Shown here: positions 5,446 through 20,689 of the stretch, piece after piece
How positions within the stretch are numbered: the stretch's first letter is position 1
How the letters are laid out: each line of letters begins with the position of its first letter
DNA from: Flavobacteriales bacterium
GTDB taxonomy: Bacteria > Bacteroidota > Bacteroidia > Flavobacteriales_F > PHOS-HE28
Assembly (NCBI GenBank): GCA_024640205.1
Contig: JAHEFL010000002.1
Location: 1 to 20,947 of the forward strand
Reading direction: 5' to 3'
DNA: 20,947 nucleotides
Position numbers and translations under genes: made by a program
The notes under the pieces: model-generated
What the model was told of the DNA's origin: nothing
What the model saw: the letters and a program-made list of their open reading frames with translations, nothing else
Database searches by the model: none

Positions 5446-5459
5446 GCGCAAAGTGTAAG

Positions 5460-5474
5460 GCGGCAAAAGGCCGC
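5460..5474 (-). promoter_or_regulatory. small hairpin in the adhesin mRNA leader
   Basis: GCGGC (5460-5464) pairs with GCCGC (5470-5474) around a 5-nt loop. It ends 14 nt before the adhesin ATG. If the leader includes it, the hairpin would sit beside the ribosome-binding region and could affect translation. No function is demonstrated by the sequence. Confidence 0.35.
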
Positions 5475-5717
5475 AGTTCGACGAGCGAAAGTACCAATTC
5501 CATGAGAGGATGGCAGGGCATGGATGGAGATGTTGTTGACAATGAAGGAATAGATAGTCTCGGTTGGCAGCCAACAGCAGTGAGTCATGAGTGCGAAGTC
5601 CACTGCCGATGGCTATGGATGCCGATGGGATACTATTGCCATTCGTACCCGTAAGGAATTCCCAGCTTCCGTTACAGAGGCGAGCCCACGAATGACAAAG
5701 GCGCCTCGCGGTGCCAT

Positions 5718-5741
5718 GTCTTTTGTGAACCTGTAGGGAGT
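5718..5741 (-). repeat. near-copy of the tRNA-Arg 3' end (21/24)
   Basis: This 24-nt stretch matches 5959-5982 at 21 of 24 positions, in the same orientation. The source segment covers part of the T-arm, the 3' acceptor strand and 8 nt beyond the mature tRNA 3' end. Such copies typically mark integration at a tRNA 3' end, or a partial duplication. No integrase gene is visible between the copies. Confidence 0.6.
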
Positions 5742-5760
5742 TCCCGCTTTGCAGCGGGAA
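5734..5760. repeat. hairpin element copy 1 (shared tagggagttcccgc core)
   Basis: The core tagggagttcccgc (5734-5747) recurs exactly at 5869-5882. Here TTCCCGC and GCGGGAA form a 7-bp stem around a 6-nt loop (5741-5760), followed by aaaa. It may be a small dispersed palindromic element, but two copies in one region do not prove that. Confidence 0.5.
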
Positions 5761-5776
5761 AAAACCTCGTCTCCAA

Positions 5777-5794
5777 TTCTTCACATGTGAAGAA
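5777..5794. repeat. 18-bp perfect palindrome
   Basis: TTCTTCACATGTGAAGAA reads identically on both strands. It has no spacer, which suits a dimeric regulator's operator better than an RNA hairpin. It lies about 330 bp upstream of the adhesin start. The link to any regulator is inference. Confidence 0.5.
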
Positions 5795-5817
5795 GGCTCC
5801 TGCCAATGCAACAGCAC

Positions 5818-5867
5818 TGGTCCAAAATGAAGAAAGCGCCGAATGGCGCTTTCTTCATTTTGGACCA
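5818..5867. terminator. perfect 23-bp inverted repeat, probable bidirectional terminator
   Basis: The arms at 5818-5840 and 5845-5867 are exact reverse complements around the 4-nt loop gaat. The GC core (GCGCC/GGCGC) is flanked by AAGAA/TTCTT and then AAAAT/ATTTT, so either strand's transcript yields a GC stem followed by a U-rich stretch. This is the form of a bidirectional terminator, although 23 bp is long. It would end read-through from the tRNA on the minus strand. Confidence 0.65.
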
Positions 5868-5868
5868 T

Positions 5869-6103: not shown

Positions 6104-6853
6104 TTAGATCCATCCGTTCGCCTTGTAGTAGGCGATGGCCATGAACTCCCGTGCGCAGGTGATCTCCAGTTTCAGCCGGTTCCACAGGTCGTAGCGTAAC
6201 AGGTCGCTACCGGATACATCCGGCACGTAAGCCTTACCCCCAACGCCCTCATAGAAATAGTCCAGATCGACGAACATGGGGGTATCCCATGCTGGTGCAC
6301 CACACACCCTGTTGAATCCGGCCTTTCGGAACGCTCGTACCGTGCGGTACATATTTTCCGGGGCCGTGACCACAGCTAAGCGCAAGCCTCGCCAACCGGG
6401 ATGATCACGGTAAAGTGTGATGGCCTGTTCGCGCGTATTGGTACCGGTCATCTCCCGATGGACCCGTTCCACTTCCACACCACGCATCGTAAGCTCATCG
6501 ACCATGGCCTGCATCACGAGGGTATCCAGCGGATGCATTACCACCACCTGTGCCTGCCTGCTGTTCTTCGCCCACTCCGATGAATGATAAAGGCGCAGCA
6601 TTTCATCGCCAGAAGGCATCCCGCTGCCGCCGAGCACTACGATGACCTGGGGTTCTTTGTCCTTGCACTGACCGGCCGCCGTACCGAGCCAGCGATGCGC
6701 TTCATAGGGATAGCCCGTGAAGGCAAGGAACAGCATCACAAAGGCCATCACCCCGAGCACGATGATCAACCTACGTAACCACTGGACGCCGCGCTTGCGC
6801 CATATAAGCGAACGCTCCCAACCCCTATGAAGAAAGCGGTTCATGCGTTCCAT
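6104..6853 (-). CDS. YdcF/SanA-like DUF218 membrane protein
   Basis: A 249-residue protein with a basic N-terminus, one membrane segment (about 29-46) and a DUF218 domain facing the periplasm. Family landmarks: 'VIVVLGGSG' (70-78), 'TGTNTREQA' (136-144), and 'LAVVTAPENMYRTVRAFRKAGF' (159-180), the counterpart of the family's 'lVTS..H..RA...f...G'. The His usually found in this last motif is replaced: the stretch reads Pro-Glu-Asn-Met-Tyr. SanA and ElyC relatives act in envelope integrity and peptidoglycan or lipid-carrier metabolism, but the family's biochemical activity is not settled. The start could be Met1 (6853) or Met4 (6844). It follows the M48 protease gene by 69 bp and may belong to the same transcript. 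Confidence 0.85.
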   Translation of the reverse strand: MERMNRFLHRGWERSLIWRKRGVQWLRRLIIVLGVMAFVMLFLAFTGYPYEAHRWLGTAAGQCKDKEPQVIVVLGGSGMPSGDEMLRLYHSSEWAKNSRQAQVVVMHPLDTLVMQAMVDELTMRGVEVERVHREMTGTNTREQAITLYRDHPGWRGLRLAVVTAPENMYRTVRAFRKAGFNRVCGAPAWDTPMFVDLDYFYEGVGGKAYVPDVSGSDLLRYDLWNRLKLEITCAREFMAIAYYKANGWI

Positions 6854-6922: not shown

Positions 6923-7714
6923 TCAGGGCGTGTAATACTTCAGGGCCTCTGACATGTAGGCCTCAAGGTCCCGTATCCGGGTCTCATCGCTCGGGTGCGT
7001 GCTCAACAATTCCGGAGGTGTTTGTCCTCCACCGGAGCTCATCCGCTCCCAGAATTTCGGCGCTTCCCGTGGGTCATAGCCGGCCATGGCCATGAAGACG
7101 AGGCCCATTTTATCCGCCTCCGATTCATGCTTGCGACTGTAAGCCAGCATGCCAAGACTGCTTCCGATACCTACGCTTTGCAGAAAAAGGTCCCTCGCCA
7201 ATCCGGGGTTCTGCGCGGTGAACACCTCAAGCGTCATTCCTGCCGCTTGCACTGCCATACCCTGGCTCATACGCTCGTTCCCATGGCGTGCGATGGCATG
7301 GGCCACTTCATGCCCCATCACCACCGCAAGACCTGTTTCATCCTTGGTGACCGGAAGGATCCCTGTATAGAAAGCAACCTTACCCCCCGGCATGCACCAG
7401 GCATTCACCGTAGGCTCATCCAATACTTTGAACTCCCACTGGAAACCTGCCACGCGGTTCGAGGCGCGGTGGTCCTTGAGGTATTGCGTGGCGGAAGCAG
7501 CGATGCGATCGCCCACTTTCTTCACCATCAACGACCGCGGATCGGAGGCCGGGAGCACTTTCCCTGTCCGCATCACTTCCACGTACTGTTCATTCGCCAT
7601 GGTCATGATGGAAGCCTCGTCCACGAGGTTCATCTGCCGACGACCGGTAATGGGCACCTTGGCGCAGGATTGCACGCCCAGGATGCCGATAAGGAACAGC
7701 AGGCGCAGGTTCAT
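6923..7714 (-). CDS. M48 family zinc metalloprotease lipoprotein
   Basis: A 263-residue envelope protease. I chose the ATG at 7714 because it gives a lipoprotein signal 'LLFLIGILGVQSC' (Cys17). The frame is open further upstream, but that sequence is clpS in another frame. The zinc site is 'HEVAH' (135-139) with the third ligand in 'ESEADKMG' (Glu199). The C-terminal 'STHPSDETRIRDL' (238-250) is the conserved family ending. The N-terminal 'CAKVPITGRRQMNLVDE' is typical of the LoiP/YcaL/BepA-like branch, which degrades or helps fold outer-membrane proteins in the periplasm. The exact substrate is unknown. Its ATG overlaps the clpS TGA as ATGA, so the two are likely translationally coupled. Confidence 0.92.
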   Translation of the reverse strand: MNLRLLFLIGILGVQSCAKVPITGRRQMNLVDEASIMTMANEQYVEVMRTGKVLPASDPRSLMVKKVGDRIAASATQYLKDHRASNRVAGFQWEFKVLDEPTVNAWCMPGGKVAFYTGILPVTKDETGLAVVMGHEVAHAIARHGNERMSQGMAVQAAGMTLEVFTAQNPGLARDLFLQSVGIGSSLGMLAYSRKHESEADKMGLVFMAMAGYDPREAPKFWERMSSGGGQTPPELLSTHPSDETRIRDLEAYMSEALKYYTP

Positions 7715-7992
7715 GCGATGACCGCCGAGAGGCCCCTGTCCTGAAGGGCGGTGCACCGTGGCTCCAGGTGGTCGAAGGTGCCGCGCTTCACGCTGCATTT
7801 GCCGTTGTAATGCACGATCCACGCGCATTGCTCAGCCTGTATCGGGTCATGGCCACACACGTCCACCAAGCTGGAGATGACGTGATCGAAGGTGTTGTAG
7901 TCGTCGTTGTGAAGGATGATCTCCTTCACAGGCCCATGTTCCACGAGCATTTCCTCGAGAAGAGCCTCTTCGGCATGGACGTTCGCACGCAT
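7711..7992 (-). CDS. clpS: ClpS, N-end rule adaptor of the Clp protease
   Basis: A 93-residue adaptor that delivers N-degron substrates to ClpAP-type proteases (ClpC in Bacteroidota) in the cytoplasm. The core motif 'ILHNDDYNTFDHVI' (26-39, Asn29-Asp30-Asp31) holds the N-end-binding residues. 'AEQCAWIVHYNGKCSVKRGTFDHL' (53-76) carries the conserved His61, and 'LQDRGLSAVI' closes the fold. The length is normal. The ATG at 7992 is preferred; an in-frame GTG at 8022 would add ten residues of no clear family value. The gene lies 37 bp after the giant SPOR-protein gene and overlaps the M48 gene by 4 nt (ATGA). Its placement after tpiA and prmA recalls the tpiA-prmA-clpS order I associate with other flavobacteria (from memory). 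Confidence 0.93.
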   Translation of the reverse strand: MRANVHAEEALLEEMLVEHGPVKEIILHNDDYNTFDHVISSLVDVCGHDPIQAEQCAWIVHYNGKCSVKRGTFDHLEPRCTALQDRGLSAVIA

Positions 7993-8029: not shown

Positions 8030-11000
8030 TCAGGGCTTCGCGAGCACCTCCGGACCGTAGCGCTCCAACAGCACCCGTGCATCCCGCATCGGTATGCGCT
8101 TACCGTTCAGGTAGGCGGTAATGAAGGCATCCTTCACACCGAGCGTCACCGCCTCATCGCGCTGTGTTCGTGCACGCTCCTCGCTTAGGTATATGCCCGT
8201 CGTATAGCGGATCTTCCGGGTCTCGGTCAGCTCGCTGTTGAGAGGGCTGATGTTGAATAGTTTATCCAGCGCCACTGGCTTGCTGTAGACGCCGACCTGC
8301 ACGGTGAAGAAGAGTCCTTTGACTGTTTCTACCTGGCGCGCCGGGGCGGCACCAGGCTCGTTGTAATAAGAGGCTGCCTCTACTGCAGGTGTGTAAGAGG
8401 ACACGATCTCCTGTGCGCTCTTCGGGTAGCTGGCCAGCACGGTTTCGGTTTCTTGTTGTTGGCTTGGGGGTTGGGTGGCAGTCGGGGGTTGGATGGTGGT
8501 CGGAGGTTGGGTCGAGGTTGGAGTTTGGCTGGTAGCGGGCTGAGGAGTCGGGGGTTGGGCACGTACAGGAACCTCTGTGGTCCGTTGCACCGGTTGTTGC
8601 GTGGGGGTGCTTGCCTGATCCGTTCTTTCGGTCGTTCCGGCTTGGGCGACGGCGTCGGATGATGCCAATGCCCGCTGCGCGTCTGCCAAGGAAATACGAA
8701 CGCCATCCTTATATGCCACCACGAAGGCATCCCGATAACCACGTCCGCGAACTTGATCTTTGGCACCACTGGCCGAGCGGAGATCCGTGAAGAGTCCAGC
8801 TGTGTAACGGGTCAGGCCATTGTCCAGCCGCTCGCCGAGGACCGGGGTCATGTCACTGAAGGTGCTTTCAGGGATCGCGTTACGGAAGGCCCCGATCTGC
8901 ACGGCGAACACAACACCACCCGGCTTGTCCGAATCGATGGGTATCGGTGCGGCGTTCCGCGTTCCGTCCGGTCTCAATTGGAAGATGTTGCCGGTAAGAA
9001 CTTCCGGGAGCGCGGATGCGTTGCCTGAGGTCCGCGCTGTAGTATTCGCTCCTTCCGTGGACGCCGGTGGAGCGCTGTCCGTAGCGTTGGATGTAGTGTT
9101 GTTGGCGGCCCGGCTTCCGGCGGGGTCGATCCGTGCGACATCGCCGGTGGCGGCGGCCACGCGGGTGGCCGGCCTTTGATCGCCGGCCTGTCCACGCGTC
9201 TCTGCCAGAAGAATCTCCGCACGTCGGGCTCCCATTTCCAACGCCATCAAGCGGCTCGCGTCATCCTGTGACAAGCCCTGGAGCATCACGCTCGCCTGTG
9301 ATTCATTCAACGCGGCGGCACCGCGCAAACGGGCCGAAACGTTGTCCAGCGAATCCGCCTTGATCAGGAGACGATCGGAACGCTCAAGAAAAACCCGCGC
9401 GCGTTCCTGTCGTTCCTCCCGGGTCCGGTACTGCGGGTCGATGGCAGCATTCTCAGCCTCTTTTCTGAGTGCCTCACCCAGTGCCCTGTTCGCCACTGCG
9501 GCGGAGGTGGCCTCATCCGCTGCGTCGTACTGTTCCAATGCACGTGAACGCGCCTGGAAGTAGCGGCTCTCATCCGGGTTGTTGATCACCAGGGCTTCCT
9601 CCTCGTTGGTCAGGTAATAGTACTTGATCAAGCGTTCGCGCAGGACCTGTACCTGTTCCGCAGCCTGTTGGCGGTCCGTGGCCGCCATGCTCTCCTCGGT
9701 CTTGAGAACAGCCGCCTTGCTGACCGAATCCGCGAGCTGTCTATTACGAACGGCAAGTTTCTCCAATTCGATCCGTTCCTTTCGTTTGGCGCTGGTGGCT
9801 TGCTTCTCCTGTTCAGCTGCCTGTGCGGAGAGATCCCAAGCCTCCTGCTCCAAGCGCTCAGCATCCTGAGCTGCGCGAAGCGCAACTTCGCCCAGCAATT
9901 GGGGATCATCCGTTGACGGGTCGCCATTCACTGGCAGGATCGCCGGTTCATTGGCCAGATAATGGTCAAAACGCTTTGCCGGTGCCGCGGCTTTCGGATC
10001 CAGACGGGAATCCGCCTGAGCAGCCTCTTCCTGGGCTGCCTTCTGCGCGGCCGAACGAGCGGATGCAACACCGGCAGCTGATGTGGTCGGGATCACGGTC
10101 GGTACACCGGGCTCATTCGTTCCTGTCGCAGGCGATACCTCGGTCGGTGCCTCCGCACGTTCTTCCGGTTCCCCGGACGATCCATTCACGCTCTCCTTTG
10201 GTATTGTTGGCTCCACTTCACGTGCTGCGGTTCCCTCCGAAATCACCTCGCCGCCGGACCCCTCCTTTTCTGTTGGGCTGACCACTGACGGCGGTTCTGC
10301 GACATCGCGCGGTTCATCTCGCTGGGCCAGGACGCCCGCTGTGGTGGTCGTCCCTTTGCCCAGCACCTTGGCAGCGATCTCCTTGTAGGTCAACACCTCA
10401 CCGGGCGTGTATTGGCCACCTACCAGGTAGTTGTTCACTGTGATGGACCGATCAAGATCCCGCAATGCGACCAGTTCCAAGGCATAGGCGCTGCGATACA
10501 GGCTATCGCGCTCCACGATGTTATCGCTCCGATCAGCTTTGCGCCTATTCTCGGAGGCTTGCAGCGCTCGCCGCTGCGACTCCTCCTTGATCTCCTTCGC
10601 CATCAGCATGATGGGCTCACCCGGCGATCGGCCCTGTCTGGTAACGATCCGCTCCAACTGCTTCAAGCTGTCATTGGCCACCGCAAGTTCCTCTTTGGTC
10701 AGGAAGGCGGTACGTTGTCCGAGATCCGTGCGGACGATGAGGCGATCATCGCGAAGTCGATCCGTTTCGCGCTGTAGTTTTTCACGGTCCCTTCCAGGAG
10801 GCATCTGAGTCAGTATCGACGACATGGAATCGATACGGTTCGACAGGCTGTCGATCCGGATGAGATCGGCGTTCTTCAAGGCCAGCGCATCATCGACCTT
10901 GGAGGACCGATGCTTGAGGTCACTTTCGTAGACCTCTTCCCTGAGCGGTGCAAAAGCAACATAGTGATCATCGATCTCATCCGTTGGCGTACCTGGGATC

Positions 11001-14000
11001 CATCCATCGCGGGGTACGCTGACCGGTGTCGACGGACCATCGGTGTTCTCGACCGGAGAGGTTGCCGCAAGGGCCGCCACCTCCAAGCGACGGTCCTCCA
11101 GTACTTGATCGGCATTCTTCAGGTGCGTATCACGCAGTTTCCTCAGGCGGTCCAATCGGGGCAGGACCACTTCCGCCTGTTGCGGGTCCAGTTCCAGGAC
11201 GGCCACCTGACGGGACATTTCGCCGCGAATGCTGTCGGCCATCATCAACTCGAGACCATGCAGCCCAGCGGCCTGGTGATCCCTGTCGGGCATGCTCAGC
11301 AAGCGCTGCCTGTCGGCCTTGTAATCGGAGTACAATTGTTGTTGAAGCACACTGTCCTCCACATTCTTCGCGAACACCAAGGGGACCCGGGAATTGTCCG
11401 GGATCTCACTCCCGGAGATCCCCACCTCCCTACGCAATTGTTCCGTTGGATCGGCTGCCACGGGTTCCACATTGCGTTCCCTCGCCTGCGCTACCTCGAG
11501 CTTCCTCTCCAATTCACTGATCCGGGTTTCGAGACTGTCCCGTCTGTTCCGGCTCCGCTCCGCAGCTGCCAGTTGGCGCGTTTCCGAAAGCTCGTTCTCC
11601 AGGAGGAAGCTGTCCTCCAGAAGGGCCGCGTCGTTCGCGGCTTCCTGGTCCTGATCCTGAGGGGTCGTGATCGTGGTATTCCGCACCTCTTCCGGGGTGA
11701 GCATCGGTTCCACGGCCACGGCTCCTGCCGCCAGATCCCGTTCCAAGGTGCTCTGTAGGCCATCCTCCGAAGATCTTCCACCCTCCTCCGTTCCCGTTCC
11801 GGTCGGGACCGCTCCATCCTTCCCCTTTCCACTTCCCTGTTGAGCCGAAACATCCGCGTCCGTTCCGCCTTGCGCAGCATCGCTCGATCGTGTTGCTAGT
11901 GCATCACCACCGGTAGTGGACGAATTGCGTTCACCCGGCCCGGCAATGTCATCAGATACGGTCCTTTCAGTGGTACCAACTGTGCCACCGTCGTTGCTTA
12001 CCGGGACCTGCGTTACGGTTCGACCCTGCGGTTGCTCCCCGACCACATCCGATCGCTGGACATCCGTTGATCGAGTTGAATTCCGTTGCGCATCACCTCC
12101 TTGATCACGGTCCATGGTACGCGTGGTCGTGATCGGCGCTCCACCTGCAGCCGATGCTGCAGCCAACTCCCAATCAAAGGAGCGTGCCTCCACCTCGGCG
12201 TCAGTTGTGACAATGAGCGCATCATAGCGTTCGTCAATGGGCAGTGCCGCTATCCGCGTATCATTGCTTGTGATCCTCCTGGCCAGTGCCGCTACCTCAT
12301 CCGATGTTGGTGCCATTCCTCCACTGGTCGGTTCGCTGGATGTGAGATACCGTATCAGGGATGCCTTACCGCGCATCACTGCCGTCCCACGCTCCAGCGT
12401 ATTTGCCCGGGCCAGCGCGGTCGCGGTTTCCTCACGCAGGAACCCCAGCTGTTCCTTGTAGCCACTGATCTCCCGATCCAGATCCTCTTTCCGGCCTTTG
12501 TTACCCGTGCCATCGCGCTCACGCTCGAGGCGGTTGATGCGATCGGTAAGCTCACTTTCCTCGGTCCGTTTGGCATGCGCGCGATCCAGCGCTTTGGCAG
12601 CCTCGCGCTCCTGTTCGGATACCGCCCGGCGTGCAGCTTCCGCAATATCCGGCCGCGCACTGGGACCTGACTTGGAGTCCAAACGTTCCCTGAGGGATAC
12701 CAGATGCTTCAATGCATCCTGGTCACGGCCGTTGTTCAGACTACCGCTAAGGTCGGTCGCCAATTTCGTGGCTTCCATGGAACGCTGCCGCACATACAAT
12801 TCCTCCTCCTCCAGTTCCTGTGCGGACAGTTGCGCGGCACGCGCCCTCATGCTCGCTTCGCGGGAGCGCTGTCTCAGTGTCGCTGCCTCCAGCATCCGCT
12901 TGTTCCTCAAGCTTTCATCCGTGGTTGCCGAGGCTTCATCGATGATCTGCTGTGCTTCCCGGGCCGTTCGCTCGGACTCCGTGATGGCATCGACGGCCAT
13001 CGCGTAGGCTTCACTCCGCTGCGCTCCCAGGGAACTGACCTTCTGCGCCAATTCCTTGGCATCATCCTGTGCCAGGCGCAGTGCATCCTCCTTGCTAATG
13101 TCCCCGGTGAATCCGGCGCGGGTCATGATGTCACCAGCAGGTGCCAGAGGCTCCTGGGTCGTCTGTGCCACTACACGGTCCGCATTCACGTCGAGCCTTG
13201 CCCTGCGCCGTATCTCCTCCATGGCGAGGGCGATCAGATCGTCATCCAGTGGGTTATCGAAGTAGTTCCGGATCATCAACTTCTCCAGGTCGCCGTTCCG
13301 CACCAGGCTCAGTTCCTGACGATATGCCCTGGGTTGGTCGCTGCGCGGCACATCCACCATACCCACGTGCGTTTTTCCGCTGGGGCCACATTCCACCAAG
13401 AAGCGGAACCGACCTGTTCGCGGCAGGGCGAGCACATAGGTCCCGTTCATGTCGGTCCTCACATCGGCCACCTGTTCCCGTGTAGTGGCATCCTCCACGA
13501 TGATGTGCGCCCTCCGATCGTTGGCGTCGAACTCGCTGGAATAGGTCCCCTTCAGCACGGTGATGACCAGGGGCATCCGCTCAGTGGATACCCGGTACAC
13601 ATGCACTTTCCCCTGCCTGCTGCTACGCGCACTGGCGAAACAGGCTTCCTTGTGCTCCGCATCCACCATGTAGTAGATGTCGTCATCCGGCGTGTTCACG
13701 GCGAAATCCAGGTTCTCCGGCCTGCCGAAGGTGTACAGCCCCCGGTCGAAAACAGCCTTGAAGACATCGTATCCGCCCATGCTGTTGTGTCCTTTGCTAC
13801 TGAAGTAGAAGGTCTTCCCATCCGGGTGCATGAACGGGTAATCGTCGTCCAGATCGGTATTGATGAAACCGGCCAATTTCTCGGGTGTGGCAAAGCGCCC
13901 ATCAGGCAACAGCTCCGAACTATAGATATCCAGTCCGGTCTTCCCATCCTTGCCATAGCTGCTGAAATAGAAGCGACCACCCTTTCCTGGCAGGTAGACC

Positions 14001-14641
14001 AGGCTGCGCAGTTTGTTCTTCTTATCCAATGAGCTCTTCAACTCCTCCGGGGTCACCACGATACGTCCACCGATATCGCTGAGGTCATAGTACCGGAAGA
14101 ATTCCCTGTCCTCCACCTCCACCTTGCTACGCACGGTGATCTCCTTCAAATTCGCTAGAAGTTTTTGTCCATTGCGGCATTGGACCTCGAAGGCATCCAC
14201 GGGGCGCTCGGCAAGGATCTTCTTATCCGCTATCCCTTTGTAATGCTGGTAAACGACCTGTGCTTCCTTGAAACGATAGCTCAGGTGGTATGCCCTTCCA
14301 AGCCAATACCACGCATCGGCAGGGCTGGAAGGGTCCTCCGTAGCGTATTTCAGGTGACCGATCGCCTTTTCCTTGTCCTCACCGCCAAAAAGGAGACAGG
14401 CTCCGAAGCGATAATTGAGGGTACGGTCGGATGGTTCCAGACTTACCAGCTGGGAGTATAACGGTAGGGCCTCGAAATATCGGCCTTCGATGAAAAGGGC
14501 ATCGGCTTTGGCCTTCACCTGGGCATCACTGCCTTGTCCCATGACCAGTACGGGGACCATACATACCAACAGGAACACGAACGAACGGACCCCTTCCAAT
14601 GGTCGAGCCACCCTCCTCCATATGGACGTGCCTGAACTCAT
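8030..14641 (-). CDS. giant secreted TPR-PD40-CRD protein with long coiled coil and two SPOR domains
   Basis: A 2203-residue exported protein. Residues 1-36 form a signal peptide ('FVFLLVCMVPVLVMGQ') without a lipobox Cys. TPR-like helices span about 37-170. A PD40/WD40-like propeller region spans about 185-350, with the hallmark 'DDDYPFMHPDGKTFYFSSKG' and 'GGYDVF' (266-294). A carboxypeptidase-regulatory-like beta domain spans about 356-440 ('MNGTYVLALPRTGRF'). This order matches PorE of the type IX system, but the OmpA-like end is missing. Instead, coiled-coil stretches (about 500-830, 985-1430, 1525-1825) alternate with Ser/Thr/Gly/Pro-rich linkers. Two SPOR domains close the protein (about 1908-1992, 2108-2190), starting 'VFAVQIGAF' and 'FFTVQVGVY'. 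SPOR domains bind glycan strands lacking stem peptides, so periplasmic peptidoglycan anchoring is inferred. Its ATG overlaps the plsY TGA (ATGA). Exact role unknown. Confidence 0.9.
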   Translation of the reverse strand: MSSGTSIWRRVARPLEGVRSFVFLLVCMVPVLVMGQGSDAQVKAKADALFIEGRYFEALPLYSQLVSLEPSDRTLNYRFGACLLFGGEDKEKAIGHLKYATEDPSSPADAWYWLGRAYHLSYRFKEAQVVYQHYKGIADKKILAERPVDAFEVQCRNGQKLLANLKEITVRSKVEVEDREFFRYYDLSDIGGRIVVTPEELKSSLDKKNKLRSLVYLPGKGGRFYFSSYGKDGKTGLDIYSSELLPDGRFATPEKLAGFINTDLDDDYPFMHPDGKTFYFSSKGHNSMGGYDVFKAVFDRGLYTFGRPENLDFAVNTPDDDIYYMVDAEHKEACFASARSSRQGKVHVYRVSTERMPLVITVLKGTYSSEFDANDRRAHIIVEDATTREQVADVRTDMNGTYVLALPRTGRFRFLVECGPSGKTHVGMVDVPRSDQPRAYRQELSLVRNGDLEKLMIRNYFDNPLDDDLIALAMEEIRRRARLDVNADRVVAQTTQEPLAPAGDIMTRAGFTGDISKEDALRLAQDDAKELAQKVSSLGAQRSEAYAMAVDAITESERTAREAQQIIDEASATTDESLRNKRMLEAATLRQRSREASMRARAAQLSAQELEEEELYVRQRSMEATKLATDLSGSLNNGRDQDALKHLVSLRERLDSKSGPSARPDIAEAARRAVSEQEREAAKALDRAHAKRTEESELTDRINRLERERDGTGNKGRKEDLDREISGYKEQLGFLREETATALARANTLERGTAVMRGKASLIRYLTSSEPTSGGMAPTSDEVAALARRITSNDTRIAALPIDERYDALIVTTDAEVEARSFDWELAAASAAGGAPITTTRTMDRDQGGDAQRNSTRSTDVQRSDVVGEQPQGRTVTQVPVSNDGGTVGTTERTVSDDIAGPGERNSSTTGGDALATRSSDAAQGGTDADVSAQQGSGKGKDGAVPTGTGTEEGGRSSEDGLQSTLERDLAAGAVAVEPMLTPEEVRNTTITTPQDQDQEAANDAALLEDSFLLENELSETRQLAAAERSRNRRDSLETRISELERKLEVAQARERNVEPVAADPTEQLRREVGISGSEIPDNSRVPLVFAKNVEDSVLQQQLYSDYKADRQRLLSMPDRDHQAAGLHGLELMMADSIRGEMSRQVAVLELDPQQAEVVLPRLDRLRKLRDTHLKNADQVLEDRRLEVAALAATSPVENTDGPSTPVSVPRDGWIPGTPTDEIDDHYVAFAPLREEVYESDLKHRSSKVDDALALKNADLIRIDSLSNRIDSMSSILTQMPPGRDREKLQRETDRLRDDRLIVRTDLGQRTAFLTKEELAVANDSLKQLERIVTRQGRSPGEPIMLMAKEIKEESQRRALQASENRRKADRSDNIVERDSLYRSAYALELVALRDLDRSITVNNYLVGGQYTPGEVLTYKEIAAKVLGKGTTTTAGVLAQRDEPRDVAEPPSVVSPTEKEGSGGEVISEGTAAREVEPTIPKESVNGSSGEPEERAEAPTEVSPATGTNEPGVPTVIPTTSAAGVASARSAAQKAAQEEAAQADSRLDPKAAAPAKRFDHYLANEPAILPVNGDPSTDDPQLLGEVALRAAQDAERLEQEAWDLSAQAAEQEKQATSAKRKERIELEKLAVRNRQLADSVSKAAVLKTEESMAATDRQQAAEQVQVLRERLIKYYYLTNEEEALVINNPDESRYFQARSRALEQYDAADEATSAAVANRALGEALRKEAENAAIDPQYRTREERQERARVFLERSDRLLIKADSLDNVSARLRGAAALNESQASVMLQGLSQDDASRLMALEMGARRAEILLAETRGQAGDQRPATRVAAATGDVARIDPAGSRAANNTTSNATDSAPPASTEGANTTARTSGNASALPEVLTGNIFQLRPDGTRNAAPIPIDSDKPGGVVFAVQIGAFRNAIPESTFSDMTPVLGERLDNGLTRYTAGLFTDLRSASGAKDQVRGRGYRDAFVVAYKDGVRISLADAQRALASSDAVAQAGTTERTDQASTPTQQPVQRTTEVPVRAQPPTPQPATSQTPTSTQPPTTIQPPTATQPPSQQQETETVLASYPKSAQEIVSSYTPAVEAASYYNEPGAAPARQVETVKGLFFTVQVGVYSKPVALDKLFNISPLNSELTETRKIRYTTGIYLSEERARTQRDEAVTLGVKDAFITAYLNGKRIPMRDARVLLERYGPEVLAKP
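8471..8542 (-). repeat. four 18-bp tandem repeats encoding a P/T/Q linker
   Basis: Units at 8471-8488, 8489-8506, 8507-8524 and 8525-8542 encode PPTATQ, PPTTIQ, TPTSTQ and QPATSQ (residues 2034-2057). They form the flexible linker between the two SPOR domains of the giant protein. The copy number may vary between strains. Confidence 0.75.
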
Positions 14642-15288
14642 CCGTTGTCACCCTGTTTTCCGGCAAGGCTCATGCGATGCTCCTCACCACGGATCAATCT
14701 GCCGATGTTCTTTCGATGCGTATAGAACACGATCAAGCAGAGGAGGACCCCGAAGCCCATCTTGACCCCGCTCGCTTCGTGATAGATAAGTCCCATGGCC
14801 AAGGGAAACGCCAGTGCAGCACAAAGCGAACCTACGGACACATATCGGGTGAAAGCGAAGGCCAGCGCGAATGCCAGAACACAGAACATCGCCGCACCCG
14901 GGTGTATCGCGATGATGCCTCCGAAGGAAGTGGCCACACCTTTTCCGCCCGTGAAGTCCATGAAGACGGAGTACAGATGACCCAGTACCGTGGCGAGCAC
15001 GAGCGCCAAGCGGAACCACATCCATGAATCCGTATCAGGCTCCAACCCGCTGAAGTTCGGCAGGATCCGCACAGGAATGAAGCCCTTGGCGATATCCGCC
15101 AGCAGGACAGGCACCCCAGCACGCCAGCCCAGTACCCTGAAGGTGTTGGTAGCCCCCGCATTGCCGCTCCCATGCTGCCGCACATCAATGCCGTGGAAAG
15201 CCCTACCCCACCACACGCTGGTGGGAATGCTCCCGAACACGTAGGCAATGATCATTGCGGCTATGCCGTACACCCAAGGGAAGTCCAT
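14638..15288 (-). CDS. plsY: PlsY, glycerol-3-phosphate acyltransferase
   Basis: A 216-residue inner-membrane enzyme that transfers the acyl group from acyl-phosphate to glycerol 3-phosphate, giving lysophosphatidic acid, the first step of phospholipid synthesis. The three PlsY signature loops are present: 'GSIPTSVWWGR' (19-29), 'GSGNAGATNTFRVLG' (40-54), and 'GHLYSVFMDFTGGKGVAT' (103-120). The C-terminal 'HRKNIGRLIRGEE' (191-203) is also typical. Several hydrophobic segments match the family topology, and the length is normal. The start lies 3 bp after the stop of the 1506-residue gene. The stop overlaps the start of the giant SPOR-protein gene by 4 nt (ATGA), so translation of that protein is probably coupled to PlsY. 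Confidence 0.96.
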   Translation of the reverse strand: MDFPWVYGIAAMIIAYVFGSIPTSVWWGRAFHGIDVRQHGSGNAGATNTFRVLGWRAGVPVLLADIAKGFIPVRILPNFSGLEPDTDSWMWFRLALVLATVLGHLYSVFMDFTGGKGVATSFGGIIAIHPGAAMFCVLAFALAFAFTRYVSVGSLCAALAFPLAMGLIYHEASGVKMGFGVLLCLIVFYTHRKNIGRLIRGEEHRMSLAGKQGDNG

Positions 15289-15291
15289 GGT

Positions 15292-18200
15292 TCAGAGCCC
15301 GAATCGTTCCTTGAAATCCTCCACTTTCGTTCGTCCGCTCGGCATCAGGCCGAACTGGTAGGATGGTTCATCCTTTTTGCTGTCCAACCTGCGCTTGTCT
15401 TCCTTCTCCTCGGACAACATGGTATTGAACTGGTCATCACTGCTGTATGCATAAAGGTAATTCCGCGTGTATTGGAAGAACCAATAGTGCTCTTCGTCCA
15501 GCATCAGCAGGATGCTCATGATATCTCCACTGCGCTTTCGTTCCAGATGGACCTTTCCCTTGACGGTACGGTATATCGGTTTCTTCAGGATGGTGGCGAT
15601 GCCGATATCGCCTTCGCTCAACCAGCTCTGCTCCGGTCCGTTCCAGCGCATTTTCACATCGCCAAGGATGAGCGGCTTGATCAACTCGTCCGGCATCTTT
15701 TTGATCTCGCCTTTGAGGCTGAGTTCACTAATGAGTTTATCAGAACGCTCCAGGCCGAGCAATTCGCGGAGCATCTTCTCATAATAGGTGGTGGTGATGT
15801 CCAACTGCTTCTGCTCCGGGAAGGCCAATATCTCCGTTGCCATTCTTTCCAAGGCGTTGTCCATGAAGAAGAAGTCCGCGATCATCACCCCGCTGGAACT
15901 TGCTTTATCATCTTCCGTCTCGAAGCGCAAGCCACCCACCGTGGTCAGGTCGATCCTTCCCAGGTCGACCCCGAAATCCATGCGGCCATCCGCGAGCACC
16001 ACGCAATTGTCCGTGGCGAGGCTCACAAGGTCACCGGGCAGATCGCGCTGGCGGATCTTCTCCTTGTTGGAGATCATATACTCCTTCCTGTCCTTGTCAT
16101 AGAAAAGCAGTCCCTTGGCAGAGATGATCGTGCGATCCTTAACATCCTCGGTGCGGCTCAGGAAGGTACCGTAAGCCTTGTACGGGTCCTCGTCGGTGAG
16201 GTAAACACCCGCACCGATCCGCTCCCCTTCCGCATCATAGAGCGTGTCTGCCACCGGGATGAACACCTCCAAAGGATCGATCTCGCCCTTGAACGCCATC
16301 CAGTTCCGGGCCAGGCCATTGCATCCGTGCTGGATCCGTGTGCTACCGGTGAAGAGCAGCTCCTTCACGCTTGCGGTGAGCAACACATCCCCGAAGAAGT
16401 CGAAGGCAGGGCTCAACTGGAAATCCTGCTCCTGTGTGATCCGACCGAGAGCGTATGTCTGGAAGGTGGTGTCCACATTGATGTTGTGCATGTGGATCTG
16501 GAATTTCCTGCCCTCCTCATCCACATAATCCATATCCCCGACACCGCTGTATTGGCGCTTGGCCTTGATGTTCGCAGTGGCGTTGTAGATCCGATGGTAT
16601 CGCGTCACGAAGTTGGCCGTGATCACCGTGTTCGTCAGCGGATCCATCACCGCGTTCTTCCTGACCCGGACGATCATACTGTCCGGAGTGATCAAGGCAT
16701 CCGCCACCTGGATGTACTGCACTTCGCTGGCCGTGATCAAGTGCTTCTTAAGGTCGTAGCGGGCCTTGGGGGCCATGAAGTTGAGCGAATCCTGATCCGG
16801 ACGGATACTGATGAAATTGGAACCGGAAAGCTGTAGGTCCTCGTTCCCGGCAGCTGCCGTGCGATCGCTTTCCAGTTCGATATCACCCTGGTCCATGAAC
16901 CACTTGAAACGGTCCATGAAGCAGATGTACTGATTGACCGGGAATTCCACCTTGGTCTCGGTACCGTTGCTTACGAACTCGCCTATACGCTCATCCAGCT
17001 TGATGGTGGCATTCACGTTATCCGTCCGGAAGGCAATGCTGGATATGTCCCCATCGGTGAGGCGGAAGTCGGAGGTATCCGCATGGGCCAGCATGGTACC
17101 GAACTGATAGAGGTCCGATTCCAGCGTTGCATTGTGGAAATCGATCAGGCCTGCACCTGTCATGCCCTGTGGTGTCAGGTCCGTGATACCGTGAAGGTCC
17201 GCTTCACCATCGAACATGACCATGGCTTTCCTGAGCTTCTCGGTGCGCAGAACGTCCTGGGCTGGTTCAAGCCTCACGAACACATCGCCAGCTTCCACCT
17301 GTGGCACCTTGAGCTTCTCGGCAGAGGCCACGTTGGTAAGGGTATCCGCACGACCCAGCGTACTATCCGGTGTGAAGACCAAAGCTTTCGACATCAAGCT
17401 TGTCGTCAGGTAATCCATCCGCCCGTTGCCCTGCAGCCCCCTGTTGTTGAGCGTGATGGCATCGGTGAACTTCGCCTTCGTTCCATACAGCGGTAAACCC
17501 TGTTCACCGGTGCTTCGCTCGAAACCAAGCGCATAGTCCTTCTGGAGGCGGATCGGTTCGCGGATATCGGGAAAGATCCCCCCGCTTACCAGCGTGCCGG
17601 TGAAGGTCAGACCGGCGTTCGTGAAATTGTCCAGGCTGTCGATCGTGAACGGATCCGATCGATAGAAGAACCGTTCCCTGTCATACACACCTCGCTGTAT
17701 GGAGGCCTTGTCGTAGAAGACGAAGCTTTCCTGGGTGCTGTTGAACTTGGGGTACTCCGGGTATTTCTCCTGTTGCAGACCGCTCTTGTTGTTCTTTGCG
17801 TCGATCTCCAGCGATCCGGTCACCTGTTCCAGCACGTTCTTCACCCGCACCAGACCGTACACCCCGTTCTCATTGGGCTCGAAGCTGGAAGCCATGAAGG
17901 AGACCGAATCCACATTCAGAAGGTCCACGACGAAATCGTCATAATGGAAGTAGTACTCCTTCCCATAGTACTGCAAGCGACCAGCCTGGATGCTACCGCC
18001 AAAGGTGAAGTCCCTGTTCTTCTTGACCGTGACCGTGCGATCGCTGGGGAAAATGCGGACATCCTGCGAGTCGCTGACCACGATGCGCGCCACACCGCGC
18101 ATGGCAAGGTCATTGTTCAGCAGGTTCAAGGTGGCGTTCACCCCGTCATCCGCATTGGAATTGAATTGAAGCACGTCATAATCCTGCTTGCCCGCACTGT

Positions 18201-19812
18201 TCAGGATGTGCTGACGTAATCGCGGCGTGGTCTCCACCCATTCCGTTTCGGGATCGTAATTCAGGAAGCCCTTGTTGGACATGTCAATGAGCAGCGGCAC
18301 GACTGCCTCCTTCTGCATCCGGCTGTACAGGGCGAACTCCTGGGCGTAGAAATTGCCGCCGTTCTGCTTGCTGAAATCATGCAGTCGCACCATGGGATGC
18401 ACGCGATCGATGCCCATCATGGCACTGTAGCGGTTCTCCTTGAAATAGTTGAAGCTCTCAAAGCTGGCCCGGGTCTGGCTGCTTCCAAGGTGGTTCCCCA
18501 TCTGCAGCAAGGGGTCGCCCTGCTTCCATTGCAGCACCTCGAAATACATATCGAGCTGGTGGTAGGTGTCATAGAAGGGGGCCTTGCTCAAGCCCTCGTC
18601 CCGCTTGATGAGCGAGAGCTGCTTCTTGTCCTTCATGAAACGGAGGCTGACGCTCTGATGATGGATGGAGTCCTTGTCCAAGCGGATCGAAACAGCGACA
18701 TCGTCGCTCGTGATGCGCTCCGGATCTATACTGAAAAGCACCCCGACGGCCACGATGAACGTCCGGTTGTCCCTGTAGAAGGTGAGGTAGGCTGGTTCCT
18801 CCTTCGTACCGTAGCCCTGAAGTTTCGACCCATTCATGGTGAAACCACCCTCGAAATCGATGCCTGGAGCGATCTCCCTGATCTTAATGCGTCGGTCGTA
18901 ACTGGCGAAGCGGGGATAGCTGGATGTGCTTTCCTCCACATTGGCCAGCACCTTGTCGCTGATGCGGCCCAGCATGGATCGTTCGAAGTACGGATCATTG
19001 AACCGGACCGAATCCACATCGAACGCAGCGCTCTTCATGCGGATCTCGTAATGGTGGTCCCACTCGGCGAAGGTGGCGTTTGGGCTCAGTCCTGCCCTTT
19101 CCCACGTTACTCGACCGCCGACGCCCTCCCAGGTCTCACGCGTGGGATAATAGGTACCGCTGGTGTTCCGAATGACCGCACTATCGCCTTTTGCCAGGCA
19201 CACCAGATCGGCCGATGGGAACACCACCATCGGAATGCTGTCGAATTTGAACGTGAATTTGCTCGTATGGCTGCGCCATTGCGTACTGGCGCTTTGGAAG
19301 AGCGTATTGTCACGGAACAGGCCTGCGCAGGTGGTGATGAACGTGGACACGTTCTGTTTGCGTCCGCGCTCCATGAGTTGTTCCATGCCCTGCATCCAGG
19401 CGTCGAACTCCTTGGTCGTGCGACCTCCGTTGGGGAATGCTGCGACAGATGCGAGGTAATCGCGGAAATCCGGGAACGCGACGAAACGCTTCTTCAACAT
19501 GGAATTCGCCATTGCTGCGATCCGGGCCCTGTGCACCTCGGAATAGAAAGTGCCGTTCCAAGCCGGGGAGAAGACCGTTTCCATGAATTCCCTCCCCTCC
19601 TTCTTGTTCGCTTCCACGAGGAACTCCGTCATTTCCTGGAAGAACAGGGCCTGGTCCGACGAAAAGGGCTTGGTTTGGGCGCTTGTCAGGCATGGAAGCA
19701 TGGTCACCACCAGAAGCACGATCACAGGGGTCAAACCACATAAGCCCCGGGTAGGAACGACCGGACCTTTGAAGCTCGGCATTCTTGATGTGTTCACTCG
19801 ATGTTCCCCCAT
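15292..19812 (-). CDS. 1506-residue secreted protein of unknown function, repetitive beta-rich
   Basis: I do not recognise a named family. A signal peptide covers about residues 22-46 ('PVIVLLVVTMLPCLTSAQ'); the Cys in it is not in a lipobox. Met1 (19812) and Met11 (19782) are both possible starts. The body has no further membrane segment and no catalytic motif I can name. It is rich in aromatic and charged strands and repeats a loose pattern of the type 'G.G.mdY....f....i....D', for example 'LQGNGRMDYLTT', 'GVGDMDYVDEEG', 'ISAKGLLFYDKD' and 'LADGRMDFGVD'. Residues about 1000-1115 ('APKARYDLKKHLITASEVQYIQ') vaguely recall OstA/LptA-like beta-taco repeats, which is inference only. It starts 4 nt after prmA and ends 3 nt before plsY, so it is firmly within the operon. 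Periplasmic or outer-membrane-associated location is likely. Confidence 0.85.
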   Translation of the reverse strand: MGEHRVNTSRMPSFKGPVVPTRGLCGLTPVIVLLVVTMLPCLTSAQTKPFSSDQALFFQEMTEFLVEANKKEGREFMETVFSPAWNGTFYSEVHRARIAAMANSMLKKRFVAFPDFRDYLASVAAFPNGGRTTKEFDAWMQGMEQLMERGRKQNVSTFITTCAGLFRDNTLFQSASTQWRSHTSKFTFKFDSIPMVVFPSADLVCLAKGDSAVIRNTSGTYYPTRETWEGVGGRVTWERAGLSPNATFAEWDHHYEIRMKSAAFDVDSVRFNDPYFERSMLGRISDKVLANVEESTSSYPRFASYDRRIKIREIAPGIDFEGGFTMNGSKLQGYGTKEEPAYLTFYRDNRTFIVAVGVLFSIDPERITSDDVAVSIRLDKDSIHHQSVSLRFMKDKKQLSLIKRDEGLSKAPFYDTYHQLDMYFEVLQWKQGDPLLQMGNHLGSSQTRASFESFNYFKENRYSAMMGIDRVHPMVRLHDFSKQNGGNFYAQEFALYSRMQKEAVVPLLIDMSNKGFLNYDPETEWVETTPRLRQHILNSAGKQDYDVLQFNSNADDGVNATLNLLNNDLAMRGVARIVVSDSQDVRIFPSDRTVTVKKNRDFTFGGSIQAGRLQYYGKEYYFHYDDFVVDLLNVDSVSFMASSFEPNENGVYGLVRVKNVLEQVTGSLEIDAKNNKSGLQQEKYPEYPKFNSTQESFVFYDKASIQRGVYDRERFFYRSDPFTIDSLDNFTNAGLTFTGTLVSGGIFPDIREPIRLQKDYALGFERSTGEQGLPLYGTKAKFTDAITLNNRGLQGNGRMDYLTTSLMSKALVFTPDSTLGRADTLTNVASAEKLKVPQVEAGDVFVRLEPAQDVLRTEKLRKAMVMFDGEADLHGITDLTPQGMTGAGLIDFHNATLESDLYQFGTMLAHADTSDFRLTDGDISSIAFRTDNVNATIKLDERIGEFVSNGTETKVEFPVNQYICFMDRFKWFMDQGDIELESDRTAAAGNEDLQLSGSNFISIRPDQDSLNFMAPKARYDLKKHLITASEVQYIQVADALITPDSMIVRVRKNAVMDPLTNTVITANFVTRYHRIYNATANIKAKRQYSGVGDMDYVDEEGRKFQIHMHNINVDTTFQTYALGRITQEQDFQLSPAFDFFGDVLLTASVKELLFTGSTRIQHGCNGLARNWMAFKGEIDPLEVFIPVADTLYDAEGERIGAGVYLTDEDPYKAYGTFLSRTEDVKDRTIISAKGLLFYDKDRKEYMISNKEKIRQRDLPGDLVSLATDNCVVLADGRMDFGVDLGRIDLTTVGGLRFETEDDKASSSGVMIADFFFMDNALERMATEILAFPEQKQLDITTTYYEKMLRELLGLERSDKLISELSLKGEIKKMPDELIKPLILGDVKMRWNGPEQSWLSEGDIGIATILKKPIYRTVKGKVHLERKRSGDIMSILLMLDEEHYWFFQYTRNYLYAYSSDDQFNTMLSEEKEDKRRLDSKKDEPSYQFGLMPSGRTKVEDFKERFGL

Positions 19813-19816
19813 TCCC

Positions 19817-20689
19817 TTAGCCGCTGCTTCTATCGTCCGGACGCCTGCAACCCAGCAAAGCCCATTCCGCTTCGTTCAGTCTTTCATTCGGTTGTAATCC
19901 GAACTCCTTGGCCCGCTGCGCGAGCATGTGCCTATCATTCACAACGAATCCACTAAGCAGTACCGTACCTCCGGGACGTAAGGCCGCAGCCAGGAATGGC
20001 ATGGCTTCCATTAGAACATTGCGTTCAATGTTGGCCAAGATAGCGGCGAAGGAAAGGCCCTCCAGAGAGGACGCGTCACCCTTTTCCACAGTTATTGCGT
20101 GACAACCGTTCCGTTCGATATTGCTCTTTGCGTTGTCCACGGCCCCCGGGTCATTATCGATGGCAAGAATCCGGTTCGCACCAAGGCGTTCAGCCAGAAT
20201 GGCGAGCACCCCAGTGCCGCAGCCCAGGTCACAGACCTCCTTCCCGGCAAGATCCAGGGCGAGCATGGCTTGGATCATCATACGGGTGGTGGCGTGATGG
20301 CCAGTTCCGAATGCCATGCGCGGGGTGATGACCAGGTCATGAGCGAATCCATCCACGTGGGGATGGAATTCGGCACGGATGCGGACCTCGCGCCCCACTT
20401 CAACCGGCTGGAAGCTTCCTTCCCATTCGGAATTCCAATTACGATCGGCGATCTCCAGACTACTCCAATGAACGCTTACATGCGGGTCACGCAGGGTGAG
20501 CAATCCATCAAGCCGCGTTCCATCGAACCGATCGGATGGTATGTACGCCTTGAGTTCACCGGAAGGCCCTACCGGATCGGTCATGCCTTCCACGAACGAG
20601 TCGAATCCGAGATCGGCCAACTCCACCATCAGAATATCCCGCCAGGGATCGACCGGACTGATCAAGAAAGTAACCTCCGTGTACGGCAT
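19817..20689 (-). CDS. prmA: PrmA, ribosomal protein L11 methyltransferase
   Basis: A 290-residue class I SAM-dependent methyltransferase that trimethylates ribosomal protein L11 in the cytoplasm. An N-terminal substrate-recognition domain (about 1-110) is followed by the catalytic domain. Motifs: 'MAFGTGHHATTRMM' (125-138), the PrmA signature; SAM-binding motif I 'VCDLGCGTGVLAI' (152-164); acidic residue in 'ILAIDND' (174-180); and 'ILANIERNVL' (217-226), the PrmA version of the catalytic loop. The length is normal. The start at 20689 gives the expected 'MPYTEVTF' opening. It lies 71 bp downstream of tpiA with no clear promoter between them, and its TAA stop is 4 nt before the next gene's ATG. 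Confidence 0.95.
   Translation of the reverse strand: MPYTEVTFLISPVDPWRDILMVELADLGFDSFVEGMTDPVGPSGELKAYIPSDRFDGTRLDGLLTLRDPHVSVHWSSLEIADRNWNSEWEGSFQPVEVGREVRIRAEFHPHVDGFAHDLVITPRMAFGTGHHATTRMMIQAMLALDLAGKEVCDLGCGTGVLAILAERLGANRILAIDNDPGAVDNAKSNIERNGCHAITVEKGDASSLEGLSFAAILANIERNVLMEAMPFLAAALRPGGTVLLSGFVVNDRHMLAQRAKEFGLQPNERLNEAEWALLGCRRPDDRSSG

Follow-up and report, generated by a model that had tools for sequence, protein, structure and literature searches.

A giant exported protein of Bacteroidia that joins a PorE-like front end to tandem SPOR domains

The locus and its gene neighborhood

The window, i.e., the whole stretch of DNA analyzed here, comprises 20,947 nucleotides of contig JAHEFL010000002.1 (assembly GCA_024640205.1) from a Flavobacteriales bacterium. 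It contains an ORF on the minus strand (8030..14641), which runs uninterrupted from ATG to TGA and encodes a protein of 2203 aa, referred to below as the giant. From the N- to the C-terminus, the giant is composed of a signal peptide, a TPR region, a short PD40 region, a carboxypeptidase-regulatory-like (CRD-like) domain, a middle of helical blocks and linkers, a SPOR domain, a linker, and a second SPOR domain. Two separate genes or a frameshift were considered and ruled out, because the protein is encoded by one ORF and relatives align collinearly over almost its entire length.

The neighboring genes are likewise located on the minus strand. Directly upstream lies plsY (14638..15288; Pfam 180 bits), which encodes a glycerol-3-phosphate acyltransferase, followed by a gene for a 1506-aa protein (15292..19812) and by prmA for the ribosomal protein L11 methyltransferase (19817..20689; Pfam PrmA 163.5 bits). 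Downstream, clpS (7711..7992; Pfam 66.6 bits on the longer ORF) precedes a gene for an M48-family metallopeptidase (6923..7714; Pfam Peptidase_M48 117.1 bits). The ATG of the giant overlaps the stop codon of plsY by 4 nt, clpS starts 37 nt past the stop codon of the giant if the internal ATG at 7992 is taken, and the M48 gene overlaps the stop codon of clpS by 4 nt with the internal ATG at 7714. From this spacing we infer that plsY, the giant, clpS and the M48 gene probably form one operon, which is the natural reading of the arrangement.

Conservation of this neighborhood was assessed at 37 loci, of which some have short flanks, five belong to the window's genus and one is the close relative L058, using the window genes as queries and counting matches on the same strand. 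The giant is often found between plsY and clpS in relatives: plsY lies directly upstream in 18 of the 37 loci and clpS downstream in 25, the 1506-aa protein and prmA are found upstream in 15 and 14, respectively, and the M48 gene downstream in 18. Seven loci contain none of the queried neighbors.

The 1506-aa protein looks exported and has no match in Pfam, NCBIfam or the PDB. Since 311 of the 396 Bacteroidia genomes sampled contain a match to it, it represents a wider core protein rather than a giant-specific partner. Further features of the window lie 3' of the M48 gene, again on the minus strand: a DUF218 protein (6104-6853), which we take to be SanA/YdcF-like, and an exported-looking protein of 1467 aa (1465-5868) that contains one glycine-rich and one PKD domain. 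The C-terminus of the latter resembles a T9SS sorting domain, a motif for which Pfam gave no match here. A sanA-like gene occurs near the giant in three of the 37 loci.

Domain architecture of the giant

Two sets of relatives were used. The first consists of 21 proteins from individual loci, including the window. The second was compiled from three queries, the window protein, a distant member and a mixed profile, with 526, 1268 and 803 matches passing E 0.001, respectively; the best 120 of each together make up 360 distinct proteins, window included, which are called the matches listed in the following.

A signal peptide spans residues ~1-35 (14537..14641), with the cleavage site placed by inspection and the hydrophobic stretch beginning at residue 23. 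A scan of the window protein found no transmembrane-like stretch past residue 60. The first-pass annotation had described a plain signal peptide and not that of a lipoprotein, and our data agree: the window protein shows no lipobox, and a crude pattern detects a lipobox-like motif in 15 of the 360 matches listed, 342 of which carry an N-terminal hydrophobic stretch.

The front end follows the domain order of PorE. The TPR region (residues ~36-165; 14147..14536) is matched by TPR_2 in 17 of 21 loci and by designed TPR proteins in the PDB, while TPR_11 reaches 20.6 bits in the window protein, below the Pfam cut-off of 26.8. The PD40 region (residues ~215-352; 13586..13999) matches PD40 in 20 of 21 loci with a best E-value of 1.6e-11, and in the window protein it exceeds the Pfam cut-off (22.5 versus 20.9 bits). 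The CRD-like domain (residues ~360-450; 13292..13564) was located by alignment with paralogs and matches CarboxypepD_reg in 5 of 21 loci (best 6.8e-6), no Pfam match to this model being reported for the window protein. A profile-profile alignment (hhalign) of the family front end against six PorE-like paralogs from the same genome covers all three domains with a probability of 100 and an E-value of 8.3e-48, which bears out the PorE-like order proposed from the sequence and supports the assignment of the giant front end to the PorE superfamily. The N-terminal module scores above 200 bits in all 360 matches listed.

The propeller proposed at this position was retained in part. Over the initial portion of the propeller, the alignment pairs 66 giant residues with 158 columns of the paralog profile, and therefore about 90 propeller residues are missing just before the PD40 region. 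PD40 itself is present above the Pfam cut-off, while the region is shortened by this amount relative to the PorE-like paralogs.

The middle (residues ~505-1880; 9002..13129) was delimited from composition and periodicity, with borders drawn by eye. Helix-rich blocks, as judged from composition, lie near residues 505-840, 1000-1200, 1240-1430 and 1585-1815; they are charged, rich in Ala, Glu and Arg and poor in Pro and Gly, and are separated by linkers rich in Pro, Gly and Thr. Sequence identity of 20 relatives to the window is low in this region, with means of 0.06-0.34 per 40-residue block. With a simple home-made measure on 42-residue windows, heptad periodicity is weak, mostly with z <1.5 and a maximum of 2.4. 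As a consequence, a long coiled coil is unproven and no more than a guess, helix bundles being as likely for the middle. Two further leads were discarded. Internal repeats among the helical blocks are unconvincing (the best pair, H1a/H1b, has a probability of 78, the others <28), and the weak similarity of the middle to an Spt20-like protein in the PDB (E 9.2e-4) was taken as a composition effect.

The C-terminus carries SPOR 1 (residues 1906-1995; 8657..8926) and SPOR 2 (residues 2106-2195; 8057..8326). Pfam SPOR scores 11.2 bits on the whole window protein against a cut-off of 21, and the cropped SPOR 1 reaches 21.0 bits, equal to the cut-off. SPOR 1 matches the model at E<=0.1 in all 19 aligned loci, with a best value of 6.8e-7; L051 and L052, of the 21 loci, were left out since this region is not alignable there. 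Its profile finds the solved SPOR domain of CwlC (1x60, E 8.7e-4). SPOR 2, aligned without L045, L051 and L052, matches Pfam SPOR in 6 of 18 loci, the copy of the window not being among the six, and its profile retrieves no significant SPOR structure from the PDB (1x60 at E 0.37). Profile-profile comparison, however, relates SPOR 1 to SPOR 2 with a probability of 99.9. The SPOR assignment is thus secured by the family relatives, even though the score of the window sequence by itself does not exceed the Pfam cut-off. No OmpA C-terminal domain was matched in the C-terminus of the giant by Pfam or NCBIfam, so the earlier view of two SPOR domains in place of an OmpA end holds.

In RlpA, the side chains that contact denuded glycan are Q270 and three arginines; septal localization of FtsN depends on five residues, including Q251, R285, S254, W283 and I313; and K42 and K47 form the basic patch of the CwlC SPOR domain (PMC6895207). 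The candidate glycan sites of the giant consist of Q1915 and R1945 in SPOR 1 and of Q2115 and R2145 in SPOR 2. In the alignment of SPOR 1 with 1x60, Q1915 coincides with a Gln of CwlC and R1945 with K47. The Gln and Arg of SPOR 1 are present in 360 of the 360 matches listed. The Gln of SPOR 2 is present in 359 of 359, with Arg as its partner in 355 and Lys in 4. This count covered the two positions, Gln and basic residue; in the window, the place of FtsN S254 is taken by Ala in SPOR 1 and by Val in SPOR 2. By alignment, the Gln and basic positions of the giant correspond to residues that are important in the SPOR domains of RlpA, FtsN and CwlC (PMC6895207).

A third SPOR-like copy is present in 226 of the matches listed and combines the Gln with Ile in 149 and with Val in 45. 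Because the basic residue is usually missing, this copy may bind differently or not at all, and it is possibly degenerate or re-purposed. Outside the window's genus, a third SPOR-like domain was seen in L041-L045, L047-L050 and 15 of L089-L107. Elsewhere in the window's genome, Pfam SPOR matches two other proteins, L001 (G000:C76:66-269) and L002 (G000:C142:2388-2597), with frames of 373 and 187 aa; the same search misses the giant.

Distribution of the family and its PorE-like paralogs

The architecture recurs widely. Two to four SPOR-like domains were found in 359 of the 360 matches listed, the exception (P0227) being a record named partial. The search for the same architecture suggested in the first-pass annotation was positive for front end and SPOR domains alike. 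The best 120 of 526 matches to the window query all have two SPOR-like domains. Among the best 120 of 1268 matches to the distant member, 119 have three and one partial record has one, and the best 120 of 803 matches to the mixed profile divide into 102 with three, 13 with two and 5 with four. In the set of 21 locus proteins, two SPOR-like domains each were counted for the window and nine close relatives, and three for nine others. Two short members, L051 (7880-12619, 1579 aa) and L052 (7444-11022, 1192 aa), contain zero and one SPOR-like domain, respectively; they group together in the tree described below, which suggests an early-branching or reduced form.

A seven-row full-length profile was used to scan sampled genomes. 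At E<=1e-100, the giant was detected in 166 of 396 Bacteroidia genomes, distributed over 74 of 198 genera and 33 family labels (counted by hand). Lowering the threshold to E<=1e-50 gave 205 of 396, some of the matches apparently being other PD40 proteins. The remaining 230 genomes without a match at 1e-100 are termed giant-negative, a few of which may be fragmented assemblies. With 230 of 396 Bacteroidia genomes lacking a strong match, the giant is not a universal division protein. Nineteen loci fetched from matched genomes show three SPOR-like domains in 15 and two in 4 cases. Family records are named Flavobacteriales, Cryomorphaceae, Sphingobacteriaceae, Bacteroidia and Bacteroidota, with Aurantibacillus circumpalustris as the one species, and database names are mostly hypothetical protein, PD40 domain-containing protein or WD40-like beta propeller protein. 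Scans of Pfam and NCBIfam with the window protein revealed no dedicated model for the giant.

Two NCBIfam models score far below their cut-offs on the window protein: T9SS_PorE reaches 84.8 bits (best stretch 222-418, cut-off 600) and CHU_0125_OmpA 87.7 bits (best stretch 221-402, cut-off 620). The genome encodes a separate full-length PorE-like protein, L033, with TPR, PD40, CRD-like and OmpA domains, which scores 501 bits and thus also lies below the cut-off of 600. The check for a separate PorE-like protein was therefore successful, and the possibility that the giant is the genome's own PorE was rejected on the basis of its low score and the presence of L033. Four further paralogs in the same genome, L034-L037, have OmpA-type C-termini. 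The sixth, L038 (1068-2681), is a TPR-PD40-CRD-like protein of 537 aa in which no OmpA match was found and which likewise lacks SPOR and the long middle. The paralog set thus comprises five proteins with OmpA-like ends and one without.

A tree was built from the PD40/CRD region common to 39 giants and the six paralogs, and was midpoint-rooted for drawing only. A branch with support 99/96 sets the giants apart from the paralogs, next to L038, which is the closest of the six to the giant front end. The giant is not a modified PorE: L033 is a separate protein in the same genome, and the giant front end groups in this tree with the OmpA-less L038 and not with the five OmpA-ended paralogs. Frames of ~530-548 aa that match the PD40 part of the giant recur among related genomes.

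Possible roles and comparison with known systems

The giant may serve Bacteroidia as a scaffold in cell division or in building the envelope. We propose with moderate confidence that it is an exported scaffold, kept on amidase-denuded, septal glycan by its tandem SPOR domains and presenting the TPR/PD40 head to a partner. The septal tether put forward in the first-pass annotation is thus a plausible, predicted role. On this model, the signal peptide would send the protein to the periplasm via Sec in non-lipidated form. The two C-terminal SPOR domains, judged by their conserved residues, would bind glycan stripped by amidases, which could concentrate the giant at the septum or new poles, with the tandem copies adding avidity. 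The middle, ~1400 residues of helix-rich and disordered sequence, would provide reach from the wall site to the N-terminus, where the TPR/PD40/CRD head would dock to an outer-membrane or periplasmic partner. Relative to PorE, the stem-peptide reader OmpA_C would have been swapped for a reader of stemless glycan, so that an anchor to the wall in general would become an anchor to the septum. The end-to-end conservation of the architecture, the conserved Gln and basic residue, the N-terminal hydrophobic stretch, the PorE-like head and the presence in the window's genome of an Amidase_3 enzyme, of the type that generates denuded glycan, support this predicted scaffold.

Several observations speak against this scaffold. 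The recurrent neighbors plsY, clpS and prmA are genes of lipid metabolism, proteolysis and translation, not of division. For the window protein by itself, SPOR scores no higher than the Pfam cut-off, and SPOR 2 is recognized by Pfam in a third of the aligned loci. An N-terminal transmembrane anchor is predicted for most SPOR proteins (PMC6895207) but is absent from the giant. Moreover, SPOR could bind denuded glycan off the septum. A rival reading is a general envelope tether or ruler, with SPOR on denuded glycan anywhere, a middle that sets the spacing between outer membrane and wall or lateral organization, and no role in division. The retention of a long linker-rich middle despite low sequence identity fits such a tether, as does the lack of any division gene among the recurrent neighbors of the 37 loci searched with window genes; yet every known SPOR protein, according to PMC6895207, has a role in cell division or morphogenesis, and we regard the tether as rather unlikely.

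Quite unlikely, in our estimate, is a T9SS accessory that fixes the machinery for secretion or gliding to the wall, in the role of PorE but with SPOR instead of OmpA. Its head is homologous to PorE, and the SprA translocon is present in all 72 giant-positive genomes tested (of 166). SprA is, however, about equally common without the giant (74 of the 79 tested among the 230 giant-negative genomes), so the giant is dispensable for having a T9SS, the co-occurrence is uninformative and it was rejected as evidence. The genome, in addition, has its separate OmpA-ended L033.

An analogy with Tol-Pal and CpoB, which couple outer-membrane constriction to septal wall splitting in proteobacteria, leads to a further reading, in which the giant would stand in for these proteins in Bacteroidia. 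Here, the tandem SPOR domains would read denuded septal glycan while the head, with its TPR and a PD40 that we take to be a TolB-type repeat, would grip outer-membrane partners. There is room for a Tol substitute, since the TolB_N model matches 4 of 396 Bacteroidia genomes and none of its matches falls in the window's genome (83% complete). Against it, two of the four (G097 and G381) carry the giant as well, giant-negative genomes are mostly without TolB_N, and the model is perhaps insensitive; phyletic complementarity was thus rejected for want of contrast, and we regard this analogy as quite unlikely. A fusion of unrelated ORFs by chance or misassembly, for which no supporting evidence was found, is already refuted to near certainty by the conserved architecture, present in 359 of the 360 matches listed and in fetched loci from many families, the giants forming one clade.

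The septal scaffold, our preferred reading, is best viewed against the systems whose parts it resembles. PorE is composed of TPR, a five-bladed propeller, a carboxypeptidase-regulatory-like domain and OmpA_C, the latter crystallized with part of a peptidoglycan peptide stem (PMC7192894), whereas SPOR binding needs the peptide stem removed (PMC6895207). The head of the giant thus appears attached to a reader of the opposite wall state. With PorE (NF052230) the giant shares the TPR/propeller/CRD order, export and a wall-binding C-terminus, its own binding being predicted. It differs by the absence of OmpA_C, by not being a lipoprotein as judged from its sequence, by two SPOR domains and by its score under the 600-bit cut-off; its length is about three times that of PorE, not four times as previously noted. 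The CHU_0125 family (NF053607; PMC5891637) has a similar front end, but the giant falls far under its cut-off and has no OmpA end. L038, the closest paralog, is also without OmpA, and differs by having neither SPOR nor the long middle. With FtsN, DamX, DedD, RlpA and CwlC, the giant has in common SPOR, as recognized by sequence, and a Gln and a basic residue conserved at the denuded-glycan site. In contrast to these proteins, it has no transmembrane anchor or Pfam catalytic domain, contains at least two SPOR copies, and carries a PorE-like front end within ~2000 aa.

In agreement with the first-pass annotation, which knew of no characterized protein of this arrangement, no description of it was found among the titles and abstract openings listed by searches of open-licence papers. 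The parts are of known kinds; their combination, size and conservation are apparently undescribed within the reach of that search. An exported protein of ~2000 residues, with wall-reading Gln and basic residues kept and common to 166 of 396 Bacteroidia genomes, thus stands without a Pfam or NCBIfam model of its own. The septal outer-membrane machinery of its phylum is, to our knowledge, poorly known. If our reading is true, the giant would supply a division or envelope scaffold for Bacteroidota, and the PorE-type head would be a reusable module that can be joined to opposite wall readers, for the stem peptide in the case of OmpA_C or for stemless glycan in the case of SPOR.
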